From the NCBI GenBank assembly GCA_017084465.1, contig CP070896.1, positions 1,240,001-1,304,000 on the forward strand: 64,000 nucleotides of DNA, written 5' to 3'. A program made the translations under genes and the position numbers. Each line of letters starts with the position of its first letter. Positions within the stretch are counted from its first letter, which is position 1. The notes beneath the pieces are model-generated. The model saw only the letters and a list, made by a program, of their open reading frames with translations. It was not told the origin of the DNA and searched no databases. Shown here piece by piece: positions 53,927-61,101 of the stretch. This stretch comes from Lacrimispora xylanisolvens (GTDB lineage: Bacteria > Bacillota > Clostridia > Lachnospirales > Lachnospiraceae).

Positions 53927-55610
53927 TGAAAAAGTAAATTCCACCCCCATTTACTCTGGTAGAGTTTACCTCTGCACAGTTTATATTTACTCTTTCATAC
54001 ATACATGATATCTTTATAACTCCTTCTGACAGCAGTAGAAGGAGATTTTATGAGTAAATATATTCCTGGTAACCAGAAGCACCTCACTCTGAAGGATCGT
54101 GTTTTTATTGAGAACTATTTAAATCAAAATCATACATTTAAAGATATCGCAAAATACCTATGTAAAGATCCGACCACCATCTCTAAGGAGGTCAAGGCCA
54201 GGCGTTCCTCTGACTGGTATCATAAAGGCACCTTTTACAATGCCAAGAACTTCTGCATTCACAGGTTTAGCTGTCGAAAAGTAAATGTCTGCAGAAAGAT
54301 TCTTGCATGCGGTGTCAAATGCACTTCCTGTCCGACCTGTAATCAAACCTGCCGGGATTTTGTGAAGGAACGCTGTTCACGACTGGATAAAGCTCCCCAC
54401 GTTTGCAATGGCTGTGACAAGAAAATCTCTCACTGTACCATTGCTCACAAATACACATACAATGCACGGTTTGCCGACCGCAAATATCGTGAGCTGCTCA
54501 CCAATTCCAGAAATGGTATCTGCATGACAAAGCACGAACTACATCAAAAAGATATGATTGTTACTCCTCTAATTGAGCAGGGGCAGTCTCCCTATCAGAT
54601 CTCCGTAAATCATCCGGAACTGGATATGTCTGTCCGCACAATCTATACCTACATTGACAAGGGTCTGTTCTCCGCCAGAAATGTAGATTTAAAGCGTAAA
54701 CCTAAGTTCAAACCACGTAAATGCCACAAGACACAGATCACAGATCGCTCTGTTTTTGTCAACAGAACCTATCCTGATTTTCAGTCTTTGGACCTTGAAT
54801 ACTTTGCAGAAATGGACACGGTTCATTCTTCCCGTGAATCTAAAAAGACTCTGCTGACGTTCTACTTTACCAAGGAAAAACTTTTTCTTGCATTCCTGAT
54901 GAACCGATGCACCAAAGGCGCCGTAAGGCTTGTATTTGACCATCTTGAGAAACGACTGGGAACCTATGAATTCGTTTCCTTATTCGAATACGTATTAACT
55001 GACCGTGGCTCCGAATTTGGTGATCCTGTAAGTCTGGAGACTGGGATCAATGAAATTCAGCGCTGTAATCTCTACTACTGTGATCCAATGCGTAGCGGTC
55101 AGAAGGGGGGCGTAGAAAATGTCCATACCATGCTTCGCATGGTGCTTCCAAAAGGAACCAGCTTTGAATTTCTAACTCAATGGGACGTGAATCTGATTGT
55201 TAATCATATCAATTCCACACCGCGGGAGAGTCTGGGTGGTGAAACACCATATAATCTGGCTCTAGAATCATTTGGCGAAGACACTTTAAAAGCACTTCAG
55301 CTTAGGCGCATTGTCCCTGACGAGGTCAATCTGACACCTAAGCTGATTCGCTACAACCGTTAACTAACTTACTTAAATCTGCTGTCGGACTGGAAGTAAA
55401 CTTTTCACATTTTTTGAATGTGGCCGGTGGAATTTAGTCTAGCACACGAAACTCCAGTGGCCTGTTTTCTCTGCCCTAAAACATGGATTTTTGTAAGAAG
55501 TTAGCTTAATTATAGCAGAAATCTTAAAATAGTGCGCGAAAACCTCTACCATTTATGACAACTTTTAAAGGGTGGTGGAATTTAGTCCTGCACCGGAATT
55601 TACTTTTTCA
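53927..55610 (+). mobile_element. IS30-family insertion sequence, ~1684 bp
   Basis: Terminal inverted repeats TGAAAAAGTAAATTCC at both ends, with a single intact transposase gene. Sub-terminal repeats GGTGGAATTTAGTC occur twice near the right end (about 55429 and 55574). It appears complete. Confidence 0.88.
54050..55363 (+). CDS. IS30-family transposase
   Basis: 437 residues. An N-terminal HTH (HLTLKDRVFIENYLNQNHTFKDIAKYLCKDPTTISKEVKARR), a Cys-rich zinc-like region (residues ~65-130), and an integrase-type DDE core with acids in EMDTVHSS, YVLTDRGSEF and KGGVENVHTMLR. Ribosome site GAAGGAGATTTT. Full length, likely active. Confidence 0.93.
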   Translation: MSKYIPGNQKHLTLKDRVFIENYLNQNHTFKDIAKYLCKDPTTISKEVKARRSSDWYHKGTFYNAKNFCIHRFSCRKVNVCRKILACGVKCTSCPTCNQTCRDFVKERCSRLDKAPHVCNGCDKKISHCTIAHKYTYNARFADRKYRELLTNSRNGICMTKHELHQKDMIVTPLIEQGQSPYQISVNHPELDMSVRTIYTYIDKGLFSARNVDLKRKPKFKPRKCHKTQITDRSVFVNRTYPDFQSLDLEYFAEMDTVHSSRESKKTLLTFYFTKEKLFLAFLMNRCTKGAVRLVFDHLEKRLGTYEFVSLFEYVLTDRGSEFGDPVSLETGINEIQRCNLYYCDPMRSGQKGGVENVHTMLRMVLPKGTSFEFLTQWDVNLIVNHINSTPRESLGGETPYNLALESFGEDTLKALQLRRIVPDEVNLTPKLIRYNR

Positions 55611-56073: not shown

Positions 56074-56215
56074 GTCTTCTCTCCTGACTTTACTAATAAT
56101 AATTTCATAATAACTAAAAGCCTACTAACTATCAACATTAATTTTTCAATTGCTTTTACAATCTCTTAATAGATCCTTCAATAACAATAGCTGCTACCAA
56201 TCTATAGAATTATAG

Positions 56216-56259
56216 AAAGAAAGCGCCGACCCACGAAAAGTGAATCGGCGCTTTCTTTC
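56216..56259 (-). terminator. Terminator of the cotJ operon
   Basis: GAAAGAAAGCGCCGA...TCGGCGCTTTCTTTC, a near-perfect ~15-bp stem ~25 bp after the cotJC stop on the minus strand. Confidence 0.9.
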
Positions 56260-56283: not shown

Positions 56284-56809
56284 CTATTTACATTTTGTTT
56301 TAACATCAAAGCTGGGATTAAATGCATAAAAGTTTTTGCTGTCCAGATTATCCTGGGTGACTCTAAGTGCCTCACCAAATCTCTGGAAATGAACAATTTC
56401 ACGCATCCGTAAGAAACGGATAGGGTCACACACATCAGGATCAGTAATAACACGCAAAATGTTGTCGTAAGTACTCCTTGCTTTTTGTTCTGCTGCCATA
56501 TCTTCTACCAAGTCAGTGATTGGGTCGCCTTTGGACTGGAATTCACATGCATTAAATGGAACTCCACCCGCTGCCTGAGGCCAGATTCCAGTGGTATGGT
56601 CAATATAATATGGACCAAATCCTGATTCTACTACCTGCTCTGGGGTTAGGTTTCTGGTTAGCTGATGAACAATGGTTGCTACAATTTCAAGATGGGCCAG
56701 TTCTTCCGTTCCAATATCTGTCAAAATTGCTTTCCCTTCTTTATACGGCATAGCATAACGCTGGGAAAGATAACGCATGGAAGCGCCCATTTCTCCATCT
56801 GGTCCGCCA
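56284..56809 (-). pseudogene. cotJC: cotJC 3' part (residues ~30-203), separated from its 5' end by a 2.8-kb element
   Basis: CotJC is a spore-coat protein with a Mn-catalase-like ferritin fold. This segment carries its body: GGPDGEMGASMRYLSQRY, IGTEELAHLEIVATIVHQLTRN, SKGDPITDLVEDMAAEQKARSTYDNIL and MREIVHFQRFGEAL, including the catalase-like Glu/His ligands. Upstream of GGP the reading is not CotJC; the open frame there continues to 56910 only by chance through the element. The missing N-terminus is at 59598-59692. Recombination at the 9-bp core would give an in-frame protein of 203 residues. Confidence 0.95.
56801..56809. repeat. Recombination core, left copy (att site)
   Basis: GGTCCGCCA, identical to 59598-59606 in the same orientation. 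On the coding strand it is TGGCGGACC, encoding the Gly-Gly-Pro of CotJC at both breakpoints in the same phase. Confidence 0.9.
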
Positions 56810-56848
56810 AATTCCAAAAACATATAATTAATAACCACTCCCCAAAAA

Positions 56849-56880
56849 AGGAAGAGAAGTGTTTTATCACTCCTCTTCCT
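56849..56880 (-). terminator. Terminator overlapping the end of the 53-aa gene
   Basis: AGGAAGAGAAGTG/CACTCCTCTTCCT stem with A6 on one side and T7 on the other. It would also stop transcription entering the element from one side. Confidence 0.75.
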
Positions 56881-57028
56881 TTTTTTCATACACTTTAATG
56901 CTTTCTTCATGTCTCAAAGTATTGGGACCTAGAAATTTACCAGTCTCCCAGTGATTCTGGAATGTTTCGGGCTTTTTGTTCTCTTCCTTTGCACTGGAAC
57001 TGTAGTTATCTTTATTTTTATTTTTCAT
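56867..57028 (-). CDS. Small charged protein in the cotJC element (53 aa)
   Basis: ATG 57028 after TTTGAGGTGATCAAAC. 53 residues, Lys/Glu/Asn-rich (MKNKNKDNYSSSAKEENKKP, then FQNHWETGKFLGPNTLRHEE). Shares GPNT and overall composition with the 45-aa protein at 39148. Function unknown. Because it has kin elsewhere it may have been captured by the element. Confidence 0.65.
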   Translation of the reverse strand: MKNKNKDNYSSSAKEENKKPETFQNHWETGKFLGPNTLRHEESIKVYEKKEEE

Positions 57029-57170
57029 GTTTGATCACCTCAAAGATAGTATGGTAGAAACGGTCCCGATTATACATATTCGATCTCAGATTCAGCCCGT
57101 TTCTCATTTTTCCGCAATAAACCTGCTGAGCAATCATATAATATAAAAAACTTTCTTTCCTGAGGTTCTC

Positions 57171-57851
57171 ATGCAGACAATCACACAAAAAACGAAGACA
57201 GATGTAATGAAACATAACGATGTTCCTGTCCTTACTTATACGATCAACTATCCTTATTTTACATCAACCTGCCGCACTGCCGCGGCAAACTCCATTAATC
57301 AGTTCTATGAGATTCAGTCCCAGCAGTCGGAAAAATACTGCCGCGAGGTTTTATACCCTCAGGCTGTGGAAGATGCCATGTATGCAAAAGACAATGAGTT
57401 TCCCTTTCACAGCTATGAATTTCTTTCCAATTATGTGATCACATATAATGAGGATTGCTTTACCAGCCTATACACCGACCAATATTCTTATTTGGGCGGG
57501 GCTCACGGAAATACGGTTAGGCAGTCTCAGACGTGGAACTTCCAAACAGGGAAACAGATGCATATAACCGACTTTTTTCTAGACGTAAAAGATGTAAATG
57601 ATATTTTTAAAGTAATTGAAAATGAGATTGTTATCCGCCAGAAAGAAAATCCGGGCACCTACTTTGATGATTATGCAAATCTGATCCGGGGGAATTTTGA
57701 TATGAACGCATTTTACTTAAAGCCATGCGGTGTCGTCATCTACTATCAGCAATATGATATCGCTCCATATGCCTCCGGAATTCCGGAATTTTTCTTTCCC
57801 TTTAAAAACTGCACAGATGATACCGGTTCCCAAACCACATCACAGTCATAG
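57171..57851 (+). CDS. DUF3298-type protein (RsiV-like fold) in the cotJC element
   Basis: 226 residues. DUF4163/DUF3298 pattern: VPVLTYTINYPYF, SYEFLSNYVITYNEDCFTSLYTDQYSYLGGAHGNTVRQSQTWNF, ITDFF, and the C-terminal PCGVVIYYQQYDIAPYASGIPEFFFPF. The fold is the extracytoplasmic ligand-binding domain of RsiV-type anti-sigma factors, but there is no membrane helix or signal here, so it is likely cytoplasmic or misannotated at the start. Its use inside an intervening element is unclear. Confidence 0.8.
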   Translation: MQTITQKTKTDVMKHNDVPVLTYTINYPYFTSTCRTAAANSINQFYEIQSQQSEKYCREVLYPQAVEDAMYAKDNEFPFHSYEFLSNYVITYNEDCFTSLYTDQYSYLGGAHGNTVRQSQTWNFQTGKQMHITDFFLDVKDVNDIFKVIENEIVIRQKENPGTYFDDYANLIRGNFDMNAFYLKPCGVVIYYQQYDIAPYASGIPEFFFPFKNCTDDTGSQTTSQS

Positions 57852-57859
57852 AAAATAGT

Positions 57860-57886
57860 CCGGTCATCACGATAACAGATGACCGG
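57860..57886 (+). terminator. Terminator of the DUF3298 gene
   Basis: CCGGTCATC/GATGACCGG stem followed by CATTTTTTTT. Confidence 0.92.
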
Positions 57887-58043
57887 CATTTTTTTTGTTA
57901 TCTGCCTTAATATAGCCTGCCTGCCTCATTATCAATTCCAGGATCTTTTCAGCAGTCTCCTTTTCCTCTTCTGGCAGGGTCTCAAACAAAACCATTTCTC
58001 CAGTAAATTCTATGTAATTTACAATCTTAATTGTTTTACTCAT
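57867..58043 (-). CDS. Small protein divergent from the recombinase (58 aa)
   Basis: ATG 58043 after AGGAAGGGGTATAAAATT. 58 residues, beta-strand start (SKTIKIVNYIEFTGEMVLFE) then a helix (PEEEKETAEKILELIMRQAGYIK). No family recognised. Size, charge and divergent position next to a large serine recombinase make it a candidate recombination directionality factor, which is inference. Its 3' end overlaps the terminator of the DUF3298 gene. Confidence 0.6.
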   Translation of the reverse strand: MSKTIKIVNYIEFTGEMVLFETLPEEEKETAEKILELIMRQAGYIKADNKKNAGHLLS

Positions 58044-58136
58044 AATTTTATACCCCTTCCTGTAAAATGTATGTGACACAGATTGTACCTGTTTCCAGGT
58101 ATCTTCTCTTTTAATTATCGGAAAGAAGGGAACTCA

Positions 58137-59597
58137 TTGATTAAAAATGAGACAAAACCGATTGGGGCGGCTTATGTACGGGTAAGTACAAACGATCAGA
58201 CCGAGCTCTCTCCAGCTGCACAGCTTCGGGAGATTAAAAATTCGGCCATTGCCGACGGTGTGCTGATTCCGGACGAATACATTTTTATAGAAGAAAAGGG
58301 AGTAAGCGGGCGCAGAGCTGATAACCGGAAAGAATTTCAGCGAATGATCTCCATTGCTAAATCCCATCCTTCCCCTTTTCAGTATCTGTATTTATGGAAA
58401 TTCTCCCGCTTTGCTCGTAATCAGGAAGAAAGCATGTTTTATAAAAGTGTACTTCGGAAAAAATGCGGCGTATCAATAAAAAGTGTTTCTGAACCGATTA
58501 TGGAAGGCATGTTTGGGCGGCTGATAGAAAGCATTATTGAATGGTTTGATGAATATTATTCCATCAACTTATCTGGTGAGGTTACACGGGGAATGACGGA
58601 AAAAGCTCTGAGAAATGGGTATCAGGCCGCTCCCTGCCTGGGATACCGTGCTGTAGGGGAGGGAAAGCCTTTTGTTATAGAAGAAAAGGAATATGAGGCC
58701 GTAGTATTGATACATCAGTCCTTTTTTAACGGAATGGATCTCACATCAATTGCAAGGGATGCCAATAACCAGGGATATTGTACCAAACGGGGCAATCCGT
58801 TTGACAGAAGATCGGTAGAGCGGATATTAAAAAACCAATTTTACGAAGGTACAGTTACGTGGAATAACATTTCTTTTCAGGGCTCCCACGAGACCAGAAA
58901 AGAGGTCACCTCTGTCTTTCAAGCTAATCAGCAGCGGCTCAAACAGGAATACAGGCCTCGGAACAGAAGGGAAGCTTCCTCATGCAGACATTGGGCCAGC
59001 GGACTTTTAATCTGCGGTTACTGCGGTGCCAGCCTGGGATATAACTCAGGAGGAAAAACGAGTCATCAGTCCGGCTACTTTCAATGCTGGCGCTATACCA
59101 AAGGGCTTCATAAGGAATCCTGCTGTATTTCTGATAAAAAAGCGGAGTCTCTCATTATTGAATCCTTACAGCAGGTTACCGCAAATGCGGAGAAACACAA
59201 AAATTATATCAAACAACCAGATTCAGAACGATCTTTAGAAAAGCAGCGGTTAGAATCCGCATTGGAAAAGCTTGGTACAAAGAAAAATAAAATAAAATCA
59301 GCATATGAAAATGGAATTGACACTCTGGAAGAATACCGTGTCGGAAAAGAACGCATTATGAAGATTGAATCAGAACTGGAAAGCAGGATAAAATCCATAG
59401 AAGCCTGGGAACGTCATGAACACGCCCAAATTAAGGATTCGGGGAACTATAAAATCAAAGGTGTCTGCGATATATTAACAGATCAATCACTTAGCAGCGA
59501 AGTGAAAGGAAAAGCGCTGCGCAGTGTGGTGAAAAAAATTGTATATGATAAAAAGTCAGGGGAAATGAAGTTTATTTATTATATGCATTTACAATAG
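58137..59597 (+). CDS. Large serine recombinase of the cotJC element
   Basis: 486 residues from TTG 58137, chosen because GAAGGGA lies six bases upstream (an ATG frame from 58083 adds 18 unlikely residues). Resolvase domain with nucleophile Ser in AAYVRVSTNDQ and YLYLWKFSRFARNQEE (catalytic Arg), a recombinase domain (TEKALRNGYQAAPCLGYRAV, TKRGNPFDRRSVERILKN), a zinc ribbon (LLICGYCGASLGYNSGGKT... FQCWRY... CC) and a coiled coil. Belongs to the TnpX/SpoIVCA-like class. The stop is one base from the right core site. Intact. Confidence 0.93.
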   Translation: MIKNETKPIGAAYVRVSTNDQTELSPAAQLREIKNSAIADGVLIPDEYIFIEEKGVSGRRADNRKEFQRMISIAKSHPSPFQYLYLWKFSRFARNQEESMFYKSVLRKKCGVSIKSVSEPIMEGMFGRLIESIIEWFDEYYSINLSGEVTRGMTEKALRNGYQAAPCLGYRAVGEGKPFVIEEKEYEAVVLIHQSFFNGMDLTSIARDANNQGYCTKRGNPFDRRSVERILKNQFYEGTVTWNNISFQGSHETRKEVTSVFQANQQRLKQEYRPRNRREASSCRHWASGLLICGYCGASLGYNSGGKTSHQSGYFQCWRYTKGLHKESCCISDKKAESLIIESLQQVTANAEKHKNYIKQPDSERSLEKQRLESALEKLGTKKNKIKSAYENGIDTLEEYRVGKERIMKIESELESRIKSIEAWERHEHAQIKDSGNYKIKGVCDILTDQSLSSEVKGKALRSVVKKIVYDKKSGEMKFIYYMHLQ

Positions 59598-59606
59598 GGT
59601 CCGCCA
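59598..59606. repeat. Recombination core, right copy (att site)
   Basis: GGTCCGCCA, same orientation as 56801-56809. Begins one base past the recombinase stop. Confidence 0.9.
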
Positions 59607-59692
59607 TACTGACTCATAATGAAGGTGGCGATTTTAGGATTGGGCGTTTTAATATTTACAGGATACTGCAACCTCTTTTCATATCTCCACAT
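59598..59692 (-). pseudogene. cotJC: cotJC 5' part (first 32 codons)
   Basis: Starts at ATG 59692, sharing bases with the cotJB stop (TAATG). Reads MWRYEKRLQYPVNIKTPNPK, then IATFIMSQYGGP, the canonical CotJC N-terminus. At the core it runs into the element and stops at 59579 after YCKCI, so in the unexcised state a 37-residue stub is made. Joined with 56284-56802 it encodes a full-length 203-residue CotJC. Confidence 0.95.
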
Positions 59693-59967
59693 TAGCCGCA
59701 CACTCCTTCCCATGGCCATGGATCATTTACCCAGGTCCAGTAATTTTCGTCCATAACTCCATCTGCCATCAGTGGACCACAATATTGCTCATAGGTTTGC
59801 ATAGCCTGATTACGCATATTTACTACACAATGATAATAATTCAATGCATCTTGGTCACATGGGTGGGTATCAAGATACAGGACTACATCGTCCATTGCGA
59901 AACTGGCTTTAAATATCTGCATTAATAGCATATCGCAATCAACAACATTATTACAATTATTTCCCAT
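59692..59967 (-). CDS. cotJB: Spore coat protein CotJB
   Basis: 91 residues from ATG 59967, which overlaps the cotJA stop as TAATG. Recognisable CotJB blocks: LLMQIFKASFAMDDVVLYLDTHPCDQDALNYYH, TYEQYCGPL and the end WTWVNDPWPWEGVCG. Acts with CotJA and CotJC in spore coat assembly; in Bacillus cotJ genes are expressed in the mother cell under SigE. Both junctions in this operon use TAATG coupling. Confidence 0.95.
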   Translation of the reverse strand: MGNNCNNVVDCDMLLMQIFKASFAMDDVVLYLDTHPCDQDALNYYHCVVNMRNQAMQTYEQYCGPLMADGVMDENYWTWVNDPWPWEGVCG

Positions 59968-61061
59968 TACTTGCACCCCCCCATCAAAAATGGTTTAAAT
60001 AAATCTGGGAAAATCGTTCCCATTTCAATTGCAGTATCTACAGAATAAAGTTCCTGCCATCTCTGCCACGGAACATAGGCCATACCTACTGGATACCGGT
60101 CAATACATTCAGCACCGGAACATTCAGCTGGCTTGGCACCAGTACACATACCGGGAGCTACTCCCATTGGTGGCATATTGGGTCTCATGCGGCATGGAGG
60201 CATATCCGGGTACATCACTGGGCATGGGGGCATTTCCGGACATTTTGTCACTGCTGGAGAGACTCCCTGTGACGGACATTTTGCTGGTTTTGGAGGCATC
60301 TCCGGACATCTCATGCGGCATGGTGGCATCTCAGGACATTTTGTTACTGCTGGTGATACTCCCTGTGACGGACATTTTGCTGGTTTTGGAGGCATTTCCG
60401 GACATCTCATGCGGCATGGTGGCATCTCAGGACATTTTGTTACTGCTGGTGAGACTCCCTGAGGTGGGCATTTTACCGGCATTGGGCATGGGGGCATTTC
60501 CGGACATTTCATCACTGCTGGCGATACTCCCTGTGACGGACATTTCATTGGCATTGGGCATGGGGGCATTTCCGGACATTTCGTAACTGCTGGTGAGACT
60601 CCCTGTGATGGGCATTTTACCGGCATTGGGCATGGGGGCATTTCCGGACATTTCATCACTGCTGGCGATACTCCCTGTGATGGGCATTTCATTGGCATTG
60701 GGCATGGAGGCATTTCCGGACATTTCATCACTGCTGGCGATACTCCCTGTGATGGGCATTTTACCGGCATTGGGCATGGGGGCATTTCCGGACATTTCAT
60801 CATTGCCGGGGATACTCCCTGTGACGGACAATTCATTGGCTTGGGGGGCATCTCCGGACAATTCATGGATCCAAAGTAAGAGGGACATCTGGATAAATCC
60901 TGTTGTCTCATTGGAATGGGTGCTGACGGGTTTTTCGAACTCTTTGCCGGACCAGATCCCAGAGGCATATCTGGACGAATCACTGTACCCGGACATACGG
61001 ACATATCAAGTTCCATAGGCGAAGACCAGTCGGAACACCGTTGTTTTGTATAACCATCCAT
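59967..61061 (-). CDS. cotJA: Spore coat protein CotJA with a long Cys/Pro/Met repeat insertion
   Basis: 364 residues from ATG 61061 (AAAGGAG 11 bases upstream; an ATG at 61082 has no ribosome site). The last ~40 residues are the whole normal CotJA core (GMAYVPWQRWQELYSVDTAI, GTIFPDL). Before it lie eight repeats of 24-32 residues built on CPSQGVSPAV-K-CPEMPPCPMP. Ordinary CotJA is ~80-100 residues, so this protein is about four times the family length. The repeats may be cross-linking or metal-binding. First gene of cotJABC. Confidence 0.92.
   Translation of the reverse strand: MDGYTKQRCSDWSSPMELDMSVCPGTVIRPDMPLGSGPAKSSKNPSAPIPMRQQDLSRCPSYFGSMNCPEMPPKPMNCPSQGVSPAMMKCPEMPPCPMPVKCPSQGVSPAVMKCPEMPPCPMPMKCPSQGVSPAVMKCPEMPPCPMPVKCPSQGVSPAVTKCPEMPPCPMPMKCPSQGVSPAVMKCPEMPPCPMPVKCPPQGVSPAVTKCPEMPPCRMRCPEMPPKPAKCPSQGVSPAVTKCPEMPPCRMRCPEMPPKPAKCPSQGVSPAVTKCPEMPPCPVMYPDMPPCRMRPNMPPMGVAPGMCTGAKPAECSGAECIDRYPVGMAYVPWQRWQELYSVDTAIEMGTIFPDLFKPFLMGGCK
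60219..60830 (-). repeat. 72-bp (and 96-bp) tandem repeats inside cotJA
   Basis: Five near-identical 72-bp units followed by two 96-bp units (with an added CRMRCPEMPPKPAK segment) and one partial unit. All encode Cys at fixed spacing. High nucleotide identity suggests recent expansion and likely length variation between strains. Confidence 0.92.
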
Positions 61062-61101
61062 AGGATGTTTGACTCCTTTCATACTTGAAAAGTTTCTAAT
61101 A

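Follow-up and report, generated by a model that had tools for sequence, protein, structure and literature searches.

Intervening Elements in Sporulation Genes

Programmed excision of DNA from sporulation genes is so far known from a handful of genes and strains. The skin element in sigK of B. subtilis and its counterpart in C. difficile, skinCd, are serine-recombinase elements in a mother-cell sporulation gene that is rejoined precisely; B. subtilis skin is given as 48 kb (PMC3416734). Here we describe an element of the same type but only 2.8 kb long, with another recombinase and in another gene, cotJC, of Lacrimispora xylanisolvens (assembly GCA_017084465.1, genome G000 below). It lies in a window, that is, the whole stretch of DNA analyzed, of 64,000 nucleotides (contig CP070896.1, positions 1,240,001 to 1,304,000). 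By analogy with the described systems it is most likely a skin-like element, with excision predicted: probably an old, largely vertically inherited phage relic, which would be excised during sporulation, in the mother cell, by its recombinase together with a 58-residue protein, S59, to rejoin cotJC. Judged from the loci compared below, it is one of many elements in the same gene.

Like gin in gerE of Bacillus cereus, the cotJC element is not a prophage, has a 9-bp core and combines a recombinase with a tiny directionality factor, here a candidate one. In gin these are GirC and the 42-aa GirX, and excision is described in mid-sporulation (PMC5595907). gin is given there as 28.6 kb with three recombinases, whereas the cotJC element has one recombinase and is about ten times smaller. 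According to the descriptions of skinCd and gin, the recombinase alone integrates, and excision needs the small partner. SPbeta in spsM, vfbin in spoVFB and vrin in spoVR are described as prophages or relics in mother-cell genes (PMC4191935), and differ from the cotJC element in genes and hosts. yin in yabG of C. botulinum V73 also has a serine-type recombinase and a candidate directionality factor, and its circular form has been reported; it is prophage-like and by that account occurs in one strain only (PMC10747680), whereas the cotJC element is genus-wide.

A CotJC-like gene borders prophage phi027 of C. difficile R20291, directly downstream of its attR, under the names CDR20291_1465 (PMC11222575) and cotG (PMC12122855), which are taken here as the same gene; the two papers, as far as they describe it, call it adjacent or downstream, not interrupted. 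A survey of large serine recombinases describes diverse members that share one attB in a coding sequence (PMC10083194), as is the case here; in its main text the word "catalase" is absent and "sporulation" occurs once, the supplementary target lists lying outside this check. Judged by title and the start of the abstract, among the matches listed, no open-access PMC paper describes an element inside cotJC, phi027 being the nearest. Elements of this kind have been described before; what appears to be new is the target gene, its interruption again and again and at more than one place, and the long retention of so small a form.

The Split cotJC Gene

In the window genome, cotJA, cotJB and codons 1-32 of cotJC follow one another on the minus strand; then comes the element, and then the rest of the gene:

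59967..61082, minus strand: cotJA, first gene of the cotJ operon (371 aa by open reading frame; named solely from its position before cotJB)
59692..59976, minus strand: cotJB (Pfam PF12652 CotJB, E 2.4e-30)
59598..59692, minus strand: cotJC 5′ part, codons 1-32 (Mn_catalase profile positions 1-32)
59598..59606, minus strand: core of the left attachment site, attL, TGGCGGACC (from the sequence; a similar core in relatives)
56844..56885, minus strand: terminator-like hairpin between S53 and the cotJC 3′ part (fold -24.9 kcal/mol, z -6.6)
56801..56809, minus strand: core of the right attachment site, attR, TGGCGGACC (from the sequence)
56284..56809, minus strand: cotJC 3′ part, from the core (codon 30) to the stop (Mn_catalase, E 9.5e-39; substitution ratio, see below)
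56215..56259, minus strand: terminator-like hairpin 3′ of cotJC (fold -35 kcal/mol, z -6.8)

The core TGGCGGACC, which reads GGTCCGCCA on the plus strand, stands at 59606-59598 and again at 56809-56801 in the same orientation and the same codon phase, with a period of 2,797 bp. Joining at the core gives a cotJC frame of 203 codons without a stop. The locus thus has direct core repeats whose recombination restores the exact frame, a site-specific serine recombinase of its own and a location in a sporulation gene, cotJC within the cotJ operon. cotJC is listed under sigma-E in B. subtilis (PMC3416734). A sequence-only reading of this DNA had proposed that a serine-recombinase element splits cotJC, with a 9-bp core at both ends in the same phase and an uninterrupted joined frame, and all of this holds. 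Its placing of the recombinase stop one base from the core needs correction: the stop (59595-59597) directly abuts the core.

Gene Content of the Element

The element has four conserved genes, a large serine recombinase, S59, a PdaC/DUF3298 protein and S53:

58137..59597, plus strand: large serine recombinase (Pfam Resolvase, Recombinase and Zn_ribbon_recom; PHROG 95 integrase)
58061..58095, no strand: non-coding block of 35 bp in the recombinase/S59 interval (nearly unchanged in 16 genomes of the genus, by alignment)
57867..58043, minus strand: S59, 58 residues, candidate recombination directionality factor (family alignment; the function is putative)
57171..57851, plus strand: PdaC/DUF3298-domain protein, 226 aa, cargo (Pfam PF13739 and PF11738)
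56867..57028, minus strand: S53, 53 aa, cargo of no recognized family (open reading frame; relatives within the genus)

The recombinase is oriented towards the cotJ genes, and S59 is divergent from it. We read its start as TTG 58137, the open reading frame as listed running from 58083 to 59597. All three domains of large serine recombinases (PF00239, PF07508 and PF13408) score above their cut-offs, S19 and its surroundings are invariant in 17 aligned proteins, and the ratio of non-synonymous to synonymous substitution rates (dN/dS) is 0.10-0.14 (6 pairs, 4 genomes). The PdaC-type gene has a dN/dS of 0.05-0.10 (6 pairs, four genomes), and S53 has no Pfam match. Because the two cargo genes (57171-57851 and 56867-57028) are under purifying selection and have recognizable relatives in two genomes lacking the recombinase (G007 and G011), they may serve the host. 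No head, tail, packaging or lysis gene was recognized among the four conserved genes.

S59 has no Pfam match above the curated cut-off. Its relatives were sought among named loci, obtained by scanning named genomes with an alignment of cotJC-associated recombinases and keeping the best 80 of 532; the scan leans towards cotJC because its query was built from cotJC-associated recombinases. A member of the S59 family is present, anywhere in the locus, in 52 of the 79 named recombinase loci, and the family also accompanies recombinases that target a gene with a peptidoglycan-binding domain. Because of this association, including recombinases of another target gene, S59 would be the best candidate for the excision partner. 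The element, with its recombinase, a 58-residue candidate partner and two small cargo genes, is minimal and has been kept through speciation in one genus.

The conserved non-coding block reads CATACATT on the S59 strand and resembles a sigma-E -10 box, if the consensus is as we take it to be. A sigma-E promoter for S59 was considered and set aside as a weak lead: CATACATT is conserved and has no -35 box matching those upstream of spoIVA and spoIIID. The alignment upstream of cotJA was ambiguous, cotJA being miscalled by script in at least G010, G013 and G024.

Distribution in Lacrimispora

Among 25 genomes of the genus, cotJC is split at codon 32 in 17 (G000-G004, G008-G010, G012, G013, G016, G017 and G020-G024; G020 and G022, whose loci are incomplete at contig ends, are counted as split), split at codon 65 only in one (G015), intact in four (G006, G007, G011 and G014), without this copy in two (G005 and G018, which have the paralog only) and ambiguous in one (G019). 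Three genomes (G008, G010 and G016) have a second split at codon 65 besides that at codon 32. The same breakpoint and the same core recur in related genomes, and the recombinase is present in 17/17 genomes split at codon 32; that of G003 is 93% identical to the window's, that of G020 consists of 57 residues at a contig end, and that of G022 lies on a separate contig ending in the core. The genomes intact at codon 32 give no recombinase match (G011, 67% complete, G014 and G015), only a 44% relative in another gene (G006) or only a match at E 6.5e-7 (G007). G007 and G011 have lost the recombinase and carry an undivided cotJC, with remnants resembling S59, PdaC and S53 downstream of it. G013 (99% complete) has the split cotJC and no other copy.

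Three assemblies show further forms. In G022, a second, less similar cotJC piece from codon 61 on (L087, 5296-5637) accompanies the main 3′ part and lies behind an apparent codon-65 attachment-site arm. In G019, at one contig end (L085, 2780-3089), the two parts of cotJC meet at the core with an additional C, followed by noisy bases, and another contig (L084, 1-330) begins exactly at the core; the assembly has no close recombinase (best match 33%), and these contigs reflect either excised DNA among the reads or a loss that was imprecise. In G001 (L064, 2083-12219), the element is present in tandem, with similar recombinases and with repeated cotJB and cotJC 5′ part, which may be a real reintegration or an assembly effect.

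Selection and Age

Both halves of the split gene are constrained. For the 3′ part (codons 33-202), the median dN/dS is 0.024 and the maximum 0.103, as calculated from 14 of the 17 split genomes and 29 of 91 pairs, the other 62 being dropped for a dS of at least 1.5 or nil; among G000, G003 and G004 there are 7-10 synonymous and 0 non-synonymous differences. In the 5′ part, 617 synonymous stand against 181 non-synonymous differences (12 genomes, 66 pairs summed). In all 50 named loci split at codon 32 that were followed, the 3′ part is free of stops over its matched length, which extends to the gene's end in 28, to a further break inside the gene in 21 and to a contig end in 1. Since the split gene is under such strong purifying selection, a permanently broken cotJC is unlikely.

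Distances between recombinases agree with those between RpoB proteins in the genus (Mantel r 0.78, 15 genomes, reached by 0 of 5000 permutations; r 0.68, again 0 of 5000, when the outlier G008 is added to make 16 genomes). Clades common to the two trees are G000/G003/G004/G016/G010/G021, and G017/G022/G024 with G023. The sequence-only reading had also allowed a recent insertion that is precise by chance; this is contradicted by the largely vertical inheritance and by selection on both halves, and we reject a recent precise insertion since, in Lacrimispora, the tree of the recombinase is to a large extent that of RpoB, with the exceptions given below. Because cotJC has been split for the age of the genus and is nevertheless constrained, it is very probably reassembled at some stage of the life cycle.

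Attachment Sites and Probable Phage Origin

The predicted phage attachment site (attP) of the window element is an imperfect palindrome, in which 16 of 25 positions pair (reached by 9 of 1000 shuffles). The predicted bacterial site (attB) is not palindromic (934 of 1000 shuffles reach its score), and a palindrome scan whose span was too short gave no signal for attP (275 of 500 shuffles). In the named loci, the element-side arms of attR (50) and attL (37) contain the same motif in opposite orientation, about TATAGGTTTTTGCA, which was reached by 0 of 2000 column shuffles, and the tandem copies of G001 display an attP directly. The recurring breakpoint and core and the palindromic attP point to more than chance. 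The earlier claim of a precise serine-recombinase element whose excision would restore cotJC is strongly supported.

Phages provide uninterrupted forms of this site. A CotJC-like match occurs in 16 of 80 viral contigs, some of the matches being weak and not at codon 32. The integrase of phage contig L340, of which 21 kb of 42.9 kb were analyzed, shares 95% identity over 478 residues with that of the cotJC element in G008 and 55% with that of the window. The contig has an uninterrupted attP, whose arms match the ends of the G008 element except at 1/30 and 3/31 bases, and it also has baseplate, tail, holin and endolysin genes. In another viral contig, L262 (20 kb, integrase 59%), attP is likewise uninterrupted. 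At codon 65, the insertion of G010 measures 41 kb and encodes a recombinase of its own along with terminase, portal, head and tape-measure proteins; the elements at this codon in G008 and G015 are about 6 kb long and have recombinases like that of G010. These forms can be read as a series from phage to relic, whose order we infer. Intact, phage-bearing, shrunken and doubly interrupted forms thus stand side by side, in one gene and across a family, with the anatomy for excision. They open the questions of how a phage becomes a developmental switch, what the host gains and how small a working excision system can be.

Relatives in Other Genera

Among the 79 named recombinases, 71 are at cotJC codon 32 (68 by script, with a cotJC piece cut at the core, and 3 by eye: L118, L133 and the decayed L164). 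One further locus (L110) is a contig consisting of the element alone, two (L141 and L142) are located elsewhere and have incomplete recombinases, and five (L170, L171, L173, L177 and L181) have the recombinase at a TQWG motif of a gene that encodes a peptidoglycan-binding domain. We take this gene to be SpoIID-like, and it is a possible second target of intervening elements. A TQWG-cut gene of this type beside a recombinase relative was also seen in L100 and L103 and in nine viral contigs (L290, L302, L307, L309, L318, L320, L326, L328 and L330).

The 21 second breaks inside cotJC among the 50 named loci lie near codons 62-69 (12), at codon 136 (8) and at about codon 180 (1); they are defined by loss of the cotJC match, with the presence of a recombinase checked for some. 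When 120 Lachnospiraceae genomes were drawn evenly, with a single genome for each genus, and the rows were read by eye, CotJC was found in 75 genera and in pieces in 26 of these; five genera with possible contig ends or frameshifts (G035, G040, G061, G081 and G174) were left out of the split count. The first break is at codon 32 in 14 genera, at about 62-70 in 8, at about 136 in 3 and at about 165-180 in 1, and three have two breaks (G083 and G198 at codons 32 and 136, G190 at codons 32 and 65). An intact copy is additionally listed in 6 of the 26 (G000, G053, G057, G070, G072 and G198), and none in the other 20. Loci of 21 split genera were inspected, those of G053, G060, G161, G176 and G185 lying outside, and 20 have a serine recombinase; that of G036 is only 21% similar and lies about 3.6 kb away from the break, and that of G198 was seen beside the codon-32 break only. 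In G084, no serine recombinase was found within the 5.7-kb stretch.

Break Points and Predicted Metal Ligands

Alignment to the Mn catalase structure 1jku, with its ligand positions as we take them to be, predicts E35, E65, H68, E136 and H169 as the Mn ligands of CotJC. The breaks at codons 32, 62-69 and 136 adjoin predicted ligands. The break at about 172-176, documented by the DNA of a single locus (L176), adjoins one as well. They probably lie beside ligands because conservation is highest there, and site-specific integrases favor such conserved sequence. On balance, we favor the view that distinct serine-recombinase lineages, from prophages to 2.8-kb relics, have repeatedly settled in four regions of cotJC in Lachnospiraceae, each a few codons from a predicted Mn ligand; as 21 of the 50 named loci split at codon 32 have another break further on, many species would need two excisions for one protein of about 200 residues. 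If excision is developmental, these elements would act as introns at the DNA level, tying a coat protein that is a metal enzyme to terminal differentiation.

Proposed Excision During Sporulation and Its Alternatives

In the course of events that we consider probable, the integrase of a temperate phage would have used cotJC codon 32 as its attachment site, and the phage remnant would have shrunk to the recombinase, S59, probably as excision factor, and the two conserved cargo genes. In growing cells, cotJC would be interrupted, and its 3′ half would probably be silent. When the cell sporulates, S59 and the recombinase would act on attL and attR, most likely in the mother cell, a circle of 2,797 bp would be excised and cotJC rejoined in frame, and the Mn-catalase-like coat protein would be made only in the committed cell. 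Such excision would be harmless to heredity, as the mother cell dies. Excision during sporulation fits the findings and is proposed by analogy with skin, gin and SPbeta.

Several observations weigh against this reading. The sequence-only reading had named as contrary evidence a second intact cotJC with the split copy never rejoined, and the first half of this is found: a second CotJC, 69% identical, is intact in its own cotJA-cotJB-cotJC operon (G000:C1:4716289-4716900), so that loss of the split copy might be tolerated, and 24 of the 25 genomes of the genus have an intact paralog. Inheritance has its exceptions, too: G009 pairs with G012 by RpoB and with G002 by recombinase, G072 is placed differently in the two trees, and G008 carries a foreign recombinase. 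The structural model of S59 is modest (predicted local distance difference test score, pLDDT, 76; predicted template modeling score, pTM, 0.47), with no fold match in PDB at E ≤0.001; 27 of the 79 named loci, some of them incomplete, have no S59-like open reading frame; and before S59 only the -10 box is found, not the -35 boxes that precede spoIVA and spoIIID in this genus. Finally, 23 of the 50 3′ parts have some upstream in-frame start codon.

The alternative that survives best is that the element leaves and re-enters cotJC at random in growing cells, giving a mixed population not tied to sporulation, as in part for yin of C. botulinum, of which both forms are reported at all times (PMC10747680). 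The almost exact join on L085 and the contig starting at the core in G019, the element of G022 as its own contig ending at the core and the tandem copies of G001, which may mean reintegration, point in this direction. However, these signs may be assembly effects, and G019 is without a close recombinase. A controlled use is suggested by inheritance that is largely vertical and by the conserved non-coding block adjoining S59, and we regard random exchange as unlikely.

Less likely still is a selfish insertion that has permanently inactivated this copy, cotJC1, while the paralog cotJC2 does the work. The intact paralogs of the window genome and of most of the genus speak for it. It is at odds with the strong purifying selection on both halves while split, with the 50 named 3′ parts free of stops as far as the match goes, and with G013 and the 20 of 26 split genera for which no intact copy is listed; an attachment site alone would constrain only some tens of bases. 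Translation of both parts as separate working pieces is very improbable. An in-frame ATG upstream of the window's 3′ part (open reading frame from 56910) speaks for it. Against it, a terminator-like hairpin stands ahead of that part, in 27 of 50 relatives a stop comes in frame ahead of the first possible start codon, and the N-terminal piece has just 32 codons and no predicted metal ligand, the ligand positions being those we assume.

Other Features of the Window and Genome

A plain sigma-70 scan gave 8 promoter-like sites, fewer than the shuffle mean of 11.6, and terminator-like sites numbered 8 against 4.5 in shuffles. In the window genome, RpoB falls into two frames (G000:C1:3538308-3541869), which suggests sequence errors in the assembly. 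Adjoining the cotJ locus, at 54050-55363, is a transposase-like gene with an HTH_38 domain, presumably of the IS30 type. cotJA (59967-61082) contains a long array of Cys/Pro/Met-rich repeats, whose length varies among species according to a rough script.

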